A stretch of DNA of 64,000 nucleotides from Arthrobacter agilis (GTDB lineage Bacteria; Actinomycetota; Actinomycetes; Actinomycetales; Micrococcaceae). Below are positions 31,943 to 34,031 of the stretch, piece after piece. The stretch is from the NCBI RefSeq assembly GCF_006494655.1, contig NZ_VHIM01000002.1:124001-188000 (forward strand). Reading direction: 5' to 3'. Under the pieces are notes generated by a model. It saw only the letters and a program-made list of their open reading frames with translations, ran no database searches and was not told where the DNA came from. Position 1 is the stretch's first letter; every line of letters begins with the position of its first letter. Made by a program: the position numbers and the translations under genes.

Positions 31943-33181
31943 TCAGATCAGCGTGGCCGATCGGGCGAACAGCCTGTCCGAGGCGAGCTGCGCGCCGCGT
32001 GCGAGGGCGTCGAGTTTCGCACCGGCGATCTGGGGGTGCAGGCGGCCGCCCAGCCCGCAGTCGGTCGACGCGACGACGTTCTCCCGTCCCACCAACGCAG
32101 CGAAGCGCTCGATACGCTGTGCCACCAGCTCGGGGTGCTCGACGACGTTCGTCGCGTGGGACACCACACCCGGGACCAGGACCTTGCCGTCCGGGAGCCG
32201 CGTGTCCTGCCACAGCGCCCACTCGTGCTCGTGGCGTGCGTTGGCGGCCTCGAACGAGTACGAGCCCGCATTGATGCCCAGCACGAGCTCCACGATGTGC
32301 CGGAACTCGATGTCGGTGGTGTGCGGTCCGTGCCAGGATCCCCAGCACACGTGCACCCTGACCTGCTCCTCCGGCAATCCACGCAACGCGTAGTTCAGGG
32401 CATCGACACGGATCCGGGTGAAGGCCTGGTAGTCCTCGATGCTCGGTTCAGGATTGATCTGGTCCCAGTTCTCCGCGATCGAGGGATCGTCGATCTGCAC
32501 GATCAACCCGGCGTCGACGATCGCCGTGTACTCCTCCCGGAGGACGTCGGCCCACGCGTAGATGAACTCCTCTTCACTGCCGTAGTAGTCGTTCCCGATA
32601 CGGCTGGCCGACCCGGGGGAAAGGGCCGTGATGAAGCCGCTCGGCACGTCCGCGGCACCGAGGCCTGCCTTCAGGTTGGCGATGTCGGAGGCGAGAGCCG
32701 TGTGACCCGTGTAGGACATCGGGCCCGTCGCTGACGGGAACCCGGTCGCGTTCCTGCCCAGCTGGATCCCACCCTCGGGGTCCTGGTAAGCGGTGGCGAA
32801 ACGGGTCCAGTCCCGCCGATCCGCGAACGAGGTGAGCCTCACCCGCCCGGGCTCGCTGCGCACCGGTTCGGCGAGGATGGGATTGTACTCCGTGAGCTCG
32901 AGCCCCGAGGTGCGCTGGAAGCTGTAGGTCCACCACGCTCCGTAGTCCACGGCGTTGGACATGGCCTTCCCGTACTCCCCATCCCCGGGGATCGTGATCC
33001 CGAGGGTTTTCTGCCGTTGTACGAGGTCCACCACCGCATCGGTGAGGAGACCCTCGAACTCCGGTGTGCGCTCCAGCGTGAAGCCGTCCGGAGCGAATGT
33101 CCTCGCCGCATTGGCAGCGATCAGCTCCGGGGTGCGAGGCAGCGACCCGGCGTGGGTGGTGTGGATACGATCACTGGTCAT
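31943..33181 (-). CDS. MetE-like cobalamin-independent methyltransferase (core MetE/YxjG type)
   Basis: A 412-aa protein equivalent to the C-terminal catalytic barrel of MetE without the N-terminal half. The zinc ligands align as His277 and Cys279 (VHVCWGSW), Glu311 (SYSFEAANARHEHEW) and Cys375 (ASTDCGLGGR). Such proteins include Bacillus YxjG/YxjH, which are S-box regulated, and short methionine synthases that take methyl groups from unusual donors. An S-box riboswitch in front (33197-33287) ties this copy to methionine or SAM supply. AAGGAA lies before the ATG, next to the 3' strand of the riboswitch P1 helix. The methyl donor cannot be read from sequence. Confidence 0.88.
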   Translation of the reverse strand: MTSDRIHTTHAGSLPRTPELIAANAARTFAPDGFTLERTPEFEGLLTDAVVDLVQRQKTLGITIPGDGEYGKAMSNAVDYGAWWTYSFQRTSGLELTEYNPILAEPVRSEPGRVRLTSFADRRDWTRFATAYQDPEGGIQLGRNATGFPSATGPMSYTGHTALASDIANLKAGLGAADVPSGFITALSPGSASRIGNDYYGSEEEFIYAWADVLREEYTAIVDAGLIVQIDDPSIAENWDQINPEPSIEDYQAFTRIRVDALNYALRGLPEEQVRVHVCWGSWHGPHTTDIEFRHIVELVLGINAGSYSFEAANARHEHEWALWQDTRLPDGKVLVPGVVSHATNVVEHPELVAQRIERFAALVGRENVVASTDCGLGGRLHPQIAGAKLDALARGAQLASDRLFARSATLI

Positions 33182-33196
33182 GATGCTGGTTCCTTT

Positions 33197-33287
33197 CCAT
33201 CGTTCCTGCCATTAGCACCCTTCCGGACAAGGAATCCGGGGGAAGCTGCAGCGTCACGGAGGCAGGTCTCTCAGCTGCTCTGGATGG
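33197..33287 (-). ncRNA. SAM-I (S-box) type riboswitch
   Basis: Read on the minus strand, the MetE-like leader follows the S-box order. P1 5' strand CCATC (33287-33283) is followed by CAGAG, then AGCTGAGAGAC (compare GGTGGAGGGAC) and CCGTGACGC (compare GATGAAGCC). A P3-like hairpin CCGGA-TTCCTTG-TCCGG comes next, then the diagnostic AAGGGTGCTAAT (consensus AAGGTGCTAAT) and the P1 3' strand GATGG (33201-33197). P1 is short (5 bp). The RBS-like AAAGGAA immediately follows, so binding of SAM could hide the ribosome site (translational control); this mechanism is inferred. Confidence 0.75.
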
Positions 33288-33379
33288 TGTGGCTCAGGGG
33301 TCCGAAACCACCGGCGACGTCAGGCACGCCCTCTCCACGACCACGAGGTCGAGCACCGACAGGAAAGGCTGCCACCATC

Positions 33380-33424
33380 ATGACCGATAGCACCTCGGAG
33401 CCTGAAACTCCCGCGTCATGGTGA
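33380..33424 (+). other. 14-codon open frame, possible remnant of a methionine gene
   Basis: ATG 33380 preceded by AGGAAAGG (33361-33368) encodes MTDSTSEPETPASW and stops at TGA 33422. The start looks functional but the frame is tiny. The peptide resembles, from memory, the first residues of actinobacterial O-acetylhomoserine sulfhydrylases, so it may be the stub of a deleted gene or a leader peptide. Support is weak. Confidence 0.2.
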
Positions 33425-33461
33425 CGACCCGAACGCTGCAGGGAGCGGATCGCCCTGCTGC

Positions 33462-34031
33462 TCACCCACGCAGCGCCGCTGCCTCACCGAGCCACCGCGC
33501 GTAGAGGGACCACGGGTCGACGACGCCGGCGGACAGCCCGCGCACGTGCGCCTCGAGCTCGTCCGCCGCCGTGAACCACTCGGACCGGCCCCGCCGCAGA
33601 TCCGCGAACTGCTCGTGCCGGCGGTGTTCGATGAGACGGTCACCGCGTTCGAACGCCAGGAGTTCGTCATGCCGGATCCTGCCGAGGCGCTGGCGAGGGT
33701 TCGCCGTCGTACCGATCTTGATGCGGTCGCGGAAGCGGAGGTAGTAGACGACGTCGACCCGCGGCGGCGGAAGACCGTCATCGAGGACGTCGCCCACGCG
33801 CCACTCGCACGCCGCGCAGATCCAGCCGGACGGATACCGCACCCCGAGCCGGGAGCCGCAGGCGCGGCATGCCTCCGGTAGCAGGTCCTGGCTGCCCCAC
33901 TCGGTACTCGACCATTCGGCAACCAGGGCCACGTGTGCCGGGCACAGGGGGAAGGGTGCGTCGCCCACGGCAGCACCGCAGGGGTGGGCATCGTCGACGG
34001 GTAGCACGCAGCAGGAGGGTGATTCGAACAC
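33462..34031 (-). CDS. Zinc-ribbon protein with a T5orf172 (GIY-YIG related) domain
   Basis: A 189-aa protein starting at GTG 34031 (GGAAGG 8 bases upstream). The N-terminal third holds two cysteine-rich clusters: CC...C...CPAH, then CRACG...CAACEW, the second a clear C-x2-C/C-x2-C zinc ribbon. Residues about 105-165 match the T5orf172 domain (VVYYLRFRDRIKIGTTANPRQRL ... EHRRHEQFADLRRGRSEWF, quoted in parts), a branch of the GIY-YIG nuclease superfamily common in phages and bacteria. Whether it cuts DNA is unknown: it retains the YYLR...KIG core and the Arg/His/Glu-rich helix. No phage genes are nearby. Confidence 0.75.
   Translation of the reverse strand: MFESPSCCVLPVDDAHPCGAAVGDAPFPLCPAHVALVAEWSSTEWGSQDLLPEACRACGSRLGVRYPSGWICAACEWRVGDVLDDGLPPPRVDVVYYLRFRDRIKIGTTANPRQRLGRIRHDELLAFERGDRLIEHRRHEQFADLRRGRSEWFTAADELEAHVRGLSAGVVDPWSLYARWLGEAAALRG

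Follow-up and report, generated by a model that had tools for sequence, protein, structure and literature searches.

The leader of a short MetE-like gene in the window (the whole stretch of 64,000 nucleotides of Arthrobacter agilis DNA that we analysed) is, on sequence grounds, a genuine variant of the SAM-clan riboswitches. It is a compact S-box that lacks the P4 hairpin and carries UU where the SAM pocket of SAM-I has AA, at positions 45 and 46. On balance, this element probably belongs to the SAM-I clan as a cis-acting OFF switch that controls translation of the MetE-like gene. Its parts, and the features around it, are collected in Table 1.

Identification of the leader element

A covariance-model search (Infernal, Rfam) matched positions 33290-33194 of the minus strand to the SAM-I family RF00162 over the full model (1-108), at 43.6 bits and with an E-value of 1.6e-8. 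This was the sole Rfam match in 32900-33700, in an output that gives E-values and that displays other families of the SAM clan only when they outscore RF00162. The score misses the family's gathering threshold of 44.4 bits, and annotation at the Rfam cut-off would therefore overlook the element, as indeed a search of the whole 64-kb window at curated thresholds gave no matches, although the match lies far beyond chance. In a whole-genome search the same element had an E-value of 1.5e-8, and our own covariance model, R1, scores it at 98.0 bits, the element (L167) being a training row of that model. Other Arthrobacter genomes have the same leader ahead of their orthologue of the gene. Chance resemblance is ruled out by the two covariance-model E-values together with the covariation described below.

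The initial annotation had described an S-box with a CCATC/GATGG P1, the sequence CAGAG and a CCGGA/TCCGG P3. These and the other elements that it listed are all found on the minus strand where it had read them, and the SAM-I-type fold it proposed is borne out by the covariance match and by covariation in P2 and the pseudoknot. The description needs correcting in that P4 is missing and that U45-U46 stands for A45-A46. Three features go beyond that annotation, namely this pocket change, a complementarity between the P3 loop (L3) and the Shine-Dalgarno sequence, and three hairpins further upstream.

Table 1. Features of the leader and the gene it precedes (positions in the window)
Feature	Position	Strand	Basis
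SAM-I-type (S-box) aptamer variant, P4-less	33194..33290	-	RF00162, 43.6 bits, E 1.6e-8
Three hairpins just upstream of P1	33289..33368	-	double changes at 7 of the 20 predicted pairs, 19 sequences
H1; H2; H3	about 33368-33329; about 33329-33317; 33311-33289	-	predicted pairs
P1 5' strand, CCAUC	33283..33287	-	paired in 36/36, but set by the selection pattern for most rows
P2 arm: P2a GCAGC/GCUGC, kink-turn bases, P2b GAG/CUC, loop L2 ACCUGC	33248..33278	-	both-sided changes in 4 of 8 pairs
Pseudoknot PK1 5' strand, CCUGC, within L2	33262..33266	-	both-sided changes in 3 of 5 PK1 pairs
P3 hairpin; G43-C59 and C44-G58 retained, UU facing U57	33215..33246	-	P3 part of the 126-nt fold
U45-U46 replacing A45-A46 of the SAM pocket	33243..33244	-	counts over S-box sets and family genomes
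P3 loop L3 segment, UUCCUU, candidate anti-Shine-Dalgarno	33229..33234	-	complementary to AAGGAA; own exceeds permuted in 20 UU sequences
Pseudoknot PK1 3' strand, GCAGG, in the P3-P1 joiner	33205..33209	-	36-row alignment
P1 3' strand, GAUGG, continuing into the Shine-Dalgarno	33197..33201	-	sequence, 36-row alignment
Shine-Dalgarno core, AAGGAA, proposed L3 partner	33190..33195	-	sequence and complementarity test
412-aa core MetE-like protein, probable methionine synthase	31943..33181	-	PF01717, conserved residues, fold match

Architecture and covariation of the aptamer

We aligned 36 S-boxes, comprising the window element, its two paralogues, 10 orthologous leaders, L036, L084 and 21 others of the order. 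Over 22 pairs including the pseudoknot (P1, P2a, P2b, the base of P3, and L2 with the P3-P1 joiner), 99.4% of positions were paired, and sliding the partners by 1-3 columns lowered pairing to 28-52%. Changes on both sides were found in seven pairs, four of them in P2 and three in the pseudoknot, where 11 of the 36 sequences have C-G and 25 have G-C as the final pair. None of 500 shuffles matched the covariation score, while 45 of 500 matched the number of further pair types. Most of the rows, however, had been selected with a pattern in which P1 and the base of P3 are set in advance. Therefore P2 and the pseudoknot alone count as evidence.

Both the L2-J3/4 pseudoknot and the P2 kink-turn of SAM-I are present in the window, and J1/2 reads CAGAG. 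The GAG is near-universal among 122 covariance-model matches, with 119 GAG and 3 GAC (49 of 49 GAG in one set; 70 of 73 GAG, and the 3 GAC, in the other). Folding energy of the 97-nt strand lies at z -0.77 relative to shuffles and that of the isolated 126-nt strand at z -0.23, an ordinary stability for such sequences. For the 126-nt strand the minimum-energy fold as a whole differs from the aptamer, the pseudoknot being outside the fold model, while the P3 portion of that predicted fold keeps UU in an internal loop opposite U57.

P4 is missing, PK1 being followed by 3 nt and then by P1. A P4-less pattern fits 27 of the 30 best-scoring SAM-I loci of the order, and L085, L086 and L090, also of the order, have P4 as judged by eye. 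The SAM-I search of 396 order genomes gave matches in 161, under stricter filters through which weak members may be missed. The five-base-pair P1, which had been taken as atypical, is not so in this setting, as CCAUC/GAUGG recurs among the P4-less S-boxes of the host's order. In search listings of the open-licence literature we found no paper on P4 loss in SAM-I and none on an S-box riboswitch in Arthrobacter.

A substitution in the ligand pocket

The core that reads GCAACC in SAM-I reads GCUUCC in the window, with all other listed pocket bases retained. The adenine of SAM is held by A45 and U57 in SAM-I. According to PMC6890682, residues 6-8, 11-12, 44-47, 57-59 and 87 of SAM-I lie within 5 Å of SAM, and the window departs from this set in having UU at 45 and 46; PMC3764141 gives A45 as highly conserved in SAM-I and A46 as not.

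We counted these two positions in two sets of sequences, which overlap and include near-copies. Among 118 distinct S-boxes, gathered with a pattern that left 45-46 free and fixed other core bases (J1/2 thus being GAG by construction), AA occurs in 98 and UU in 20. The 122 covariance-model matches have AA in 111, UU in 10 and AG in one, L085, and are made up of 49 matches (39 AA, 10 UU) and 73 matches (72 AA, 1 AG). The AG of L085 means that A46 can vary within the set; A45 deviates solely in the UU group. L085 (1502-1624), which bears P4, also has the top RF00162 score of the order search, at 76.6 bits.

With UU fixed, a whole-genome search found such S-boxes in 19 of 395 family genomes and in 2 of 32 genera, and a reversed control gave none. 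A MetE-like gene follows all 20 hits, full or nearly full in 19 cases and represented by residues 1-65 only at L163. One genome, G711, has two UU S-boxes (L163 and L166), of which one stands ahead of a full gene and the other ahead of the match to the first 65 codons. Across the 20 aligned UU sequences the junction, the kink-turn, GGUGCUAA and PK1 are nearly invariant, and the P3 loop varies freely; the P3 insert is 20-25 nt long, against 9-90 nt in AA sequences, where 90 is the limit of the pattern. Since the changed bases are pocket bases, SAM is uncertain as the ligand, though the gene remains in methionine metabolism; the UU may abolish SAM binding. We found no account of a GCUUCC S-box variant in search listings of the open-licence literature.

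The Shine-Dalgarno sequence and the P3 loop

The Shine-Dalgarno match, GGAAAGGA, starts on the final bases of P1 (GAUGG). The gap from P1 to the AUG is 15 nt, which leaves no room for a terminator, and control is thus probably translational, in keeping with what had been proposed for this leader. The earlier reading that the element ends 1-2 bases before the ribosome binding site holds for the AAGGA core, which lies one base past P1, but not for the full match, which starts on the last two bases of P1.

The loop of P3 contains a segment complementary to the Shine-Dalgarno in the window (UUCCUU/AAGGAA) and in the other UU sequences, among them L157 (CUUCCUU/AAGGAAG), L151 (AUUCCU/AGGAAU), L011 (UAUUCC/GGAAUA), L030 (CCCUU/AAGGG) and L008 (CCCU/AGGG). 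Over the 20 UU sequences the mean longest run was 5.15 bp for a sequence's own loop and Shine-Dalgarno and 4.76 bp for permuted partners (p 0.008), and with loops defined more narrowly it was 4.6 against 4.32 (p 0.02; loop shuffles 0/500), although the excess is modest and the kinship of the sequences makes both p-values over-favourable. Runs of 4-7 bp were present in all 20 of these related sequences with wide loops, and of 3-6 bp with narrow ones. The 98 AA sequences gave 2.50 for both own and permuted partners, and 2.40 for shuffled loops, of which 17 of 500 were as high.

Upstream of P1, the three predicted hairpins H1-H3 show double changes in the proportion given in Table 1, a raw count, and several of their pairs are broken in some of the 19 rows. 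Rfam gave no match over this region at E-values up to 5. The hairpins occur in the UU clade and are unrecognisable in L151, which retains the S-box. An alternative pairing of the 5' strand of H3 with the 5' strand of P1 appears broken in L012.

The 412-aa MetE-like protein

The short MetE-like gene named in the initial annotation is real. Its product matches PF01717, the MetE catalytic domain, at 36.1 bits, Pfam showing that domain alone, with no MetE N-terminal domain. It reaches none of the NCBIfam cut-offs, lying far below those of all six models matched, and these scores also make up the family-level comparison with MesA-MesD. The likeness to Bacillus yxjG/yxjH that had been drawn is not upheld by the scores for the families to which we take YxjG and YxjH to belong, at 40.4 bits for PRK06233 (cut-off 576) and 41.5 bits for PRK06520 (cut-off 313).

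Residues H277, C279, E311 and C375 (zinc) and S13, E69 and D231 (homocysteine) are invariant in 26 of 26 aligned sequences, the relatives having been taken without their last residues; the roles of the zinc H-C-E-C and the homocysteine S/E/D residues are those given in PMC7857596. The assignment of E311 as the zinc glutamate follows from the motif and an alignment with 1ypx, while alignments with 3rpd and MetE put the glutamate elsewhere. A predicted structure (mean pLDDT 77.8) has as its best match 3rpd, a MesD protein, followed by MetE. Like MesA-MesD (Price et al. 2021, PMC7857596), the protein has the MetE catalytic domain alone, with the zinc and homocysteine residues, but at 412 aa it is longer than those families, which reach at most 386 aa there. 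From these features the protein is probably a methionine synthase, and it points to an apparently uncharacterised family of core methionine synthases whose genes, in Actinobacteria, lie behind several kinds of SAM-clan riboswitch.

Searches of its own genome gave no other PF01717 protein, no MetH activation domain, no PF02574 and no MetE N-terminal domain protein; MetF is present. This is suggestive of the 412-aa protein being the only methionine synthase candidate of that genome among the searched families (PF01717, MetH, PF02574 and MetE). Of 38 genomes of the genus, none gave a MetH activation domain and 22 gave a MetE N-terminal domain; 13 of the 38 have neither the latter nor the 412-aa protein, four of these 13 being less than 90% complete. 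The idea that the protein is the only methionine synthase and therefore essential is weakened by these 13 genomes, as relatives seem able to manage without either.

Among named organisms, the protein has its closest relatives in Arthrobacter, save for one record (L005) titled Vibrio cholerae strain 35D, in which the protein is 92% identical and the leader is the same. That record is probably an Arthrobacter contaminant contig.

Other leaders of the gene and their history

At E-values up to 1, RF00162 has three matches in the genome, which are the window element, L001 (50.6 bits) and L003 (33.7 bits, below the cut-off). The latter two have AA; L001 lies ahead of the gene for a luciferase-like monooxygenase, which is followed by a PLP gene of Cys/Met metabolism, and L003 precedes an ABC transporter ATPase gene. 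Near the S-box in L001 (1848-2030) there is also a match to the c-di-AMP riboswitch (RF00379), and an open reading frame that overlaps it and runs on beyond it has, by eye, a LysM-like stretch.

Of 395 family genomes, 166 contain a match to the protein. We examined 80 further leaders of its orthologues, of which 39 match our own S-box model, all 39 with AA; SAM-IV was found in 12 (40 leaders being run through Rfam), and neither in 29, among them L208, which was not run. SAM-IV also stands ahead of the same gene in Geodermatophilus (L079) and Arthrobacter (L074). Since some orthologues carry an AA S-box and others SAM-IV, control by the SAM clan is a repeated theme for this gene, with the RNA differing from case to case.

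In a quick protein tree of 111 rows, with leader labels taken from a rough pattern, the UU-bearing genes group with Microbacteriaceae-type genes and apart from the AA-bearing Micrococcaceae ones (supports 90 and 93). Over 11 rows UU requires two changes on this tree, which we read as one gain and one loss, the loss being in G346. There (L197) a close orthologue, 86% identical, is without a UU S-box and has no S-box match to our own model; a Cys/Met-metabolism gene lies about 65 nt upstream of it. A change from AA to UU inside one inherited leader is not supported, given that the UU genes cluster with the Microbacteriaceae-type genes. From this placement, it is more probable that the S-box became joined to a transferred gene.

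Two further observations were made on these leaders. The motif GCGARGCCUCGC is invariant in 16 of 16 aligned leaders, chiefly Microbacteriaceae ones, that precede the same gene (L015-L018, L025, L027, L028, L037, L038, L046, L055, L057, L065-L067 and L081), and is perhaps another leader RNA; in several of these leaders a CGAGGC close to the start codon is the complement of the GCCUCG in the motif, and the six scanned with Rfam gave no riboswitch match. Apparent natural deletions of the S-box were seen by eye in L243 and in L231, L236, L246 and L270, with short S-box-like ends alone left before the ribosome binding site, e.g. CCATCCCGAGCGGCCGATGGAAAGGA in L243.

Comparison with known SAM-clan classes

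Canonical SAM-I, plain SAM-IV and the SAM-I/IV variant were each considered as the class of the window element, and each was rejected on its features. With SAM-I (RF00162) the element shares P1, the kink-turned P2, P3, the L2-J3/4 pseudoknot, the GAG of J1/2, the GGUGC core and the position ahead of methionine genes. It differs from SAM-I in the absence of the P4 hairpin that closes the four-way junction, in U45-U46, in its sub-gathering score, and in a Shine-Dalgarno that lies beside P1 and is complementary to the P3 loop. SAM-I is told apart by P4, the kink-turn and the lack of a second pseudoknot in PMC7270179.

In SAM-IV, as described in PMC6890682, the P3 loop forms a pseudoknot with the 3' tail and P4 is absent. 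The window element resembles SAM-IV (RF00634) in the absence of P4, in PK1 and in a P3 loop whose complementarity to the 3' tail could allow a PK-2-like pairing, and SAM-IV is itself found ahead of orthologues of the MetE-like gene elsewhere in the Actinobacteria. It departs from SAM-IV in having the bases of a SAM-I-type kink-turn in P2 and no P5 hairpin after P1, the Shine-Dalgarno following P1 directly and being itself the partner in the tail. Its sequence thus has a kink-turn as in SAM-I, while it resembles SAM-IV in lacking P4 and in possibly forming a second pseudoknot. The SAM-I/IV class (RF01725), which shares the clan core, has P4 and is missing the P2 internal loop and PK-1 in PMC2864571 and PMC6890682; the window element is the reverse, with the P2 internal loop and PK-1 present and P4 missing.

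Another group of rare SAM-I relatives with pocket changes in the P3 internal loop has been reported to sense spermidine, these variants being changed in J1/2 as well (Salvail et al. 2023, PMC10853860). Compared with them, the window element has an unchanged J1/2 (CAGAG), a MetE-like methionine synthase gene rather than a polyamine gene, no P4, and a translational rather than a terminator arrangement.

A model of control and its alternatives

In the model that we favour, the switch would relay the state of the methionine cycle back onto the short MetE-like methionine synthase. A ligand filling the groove between P1 and P3 would close the five-base-pair P1. Closed P1 runs into the Shine-Dalgarno, and the P3 loop, lying alongside, could then pair with it (UUCCUU/AAGGAA), so that the 30S subunit would be excluded; without ligand, P1 would open and the gene would be translated. 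The ligand would most likely be SAM, held differently or more weakly, or else a close relative that retains the methionine part.

The pocket change may instead mark a riboswitch for a new ligand, in which the adenine side of the pocket has been rebuilt and SAM is rejected in favour of, e.g., methionine, S-methylmethionine or S-adenosylhomocysteine. On the methionine side the contacts G11 and C44-G58 are intact, only 45 and 46 are altered among the listed pocket bases, UU is fixed in 20 distinct sequences, and AA S-boxes are still present in the genome for ordinary SAM sensing. The spermidine-binding variants, altered in J1/2 and in the internal loop of P3, offer a precedent (PMC10853860), but they stand mostly ahead of polyamine genes, whereas the gene here is still one of the methionine cycle, and no ligand is evident from the sequence. 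We regard a new ligand as a serious if somewhat unlikely alternative. The more specific proposal, that GCUUCC S-boxes form a new SAM-I-derived class which senses a methionine-like compound and represses the synthase through a SAM-IV-like pseudoknot of the P3 loop with the Shine-Dalgarno, is speculative and on the doubtful side; here the methionine-side contacts would be kept and the adenine side rebuilt, with adenine absent or differently held, as for methionine or S-methylmethionine.

It is also conceivable, if improbable, that the leader is degenerate and free of ligand, having lost SAM binding and kept a fold that masks the Shine-Dalgarno, as a constitutive damper or a temperature-sensitive mask. 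UU does strike a contact base, a mask formed by L3 and the Shine-Dalgarno could work without ligand, and loss of the S-box seems to occur nearby (the deletions seen by eye in L243 and others, and L197 of G346). Decay, however, should not spare the junction, the kink-turn, GGUGCUAA and PK1, which are nearly invariant in the 20 UU sequences. Least probable of all, in our estimate, is selection of UU as a second anti-Shine-Dalgarno (CUUCC with GGAAG or GGAA) rather than for ligand recognition. UUCC is indeed complementary to the GGAA spanning the end of P1 and the Shine-Dalgarno in the UU set, but both are invariant there, which makes covariation uninformative, and the P3 part of the window's fold leaves UU in the internal loop.

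Rare SAM-I relatives with an altered pocket have already given one new ligand class. The UU set is well suited to a ligand test, comprising 20 distinct sequences and one gene, with AA S-boxes in the same cell to serve as controls. With the kink-turn kept, P4 lost and the P3 loop complementary to the tail, the UU S-boxes show a possible bridge between SAM-I and SAM-IV.
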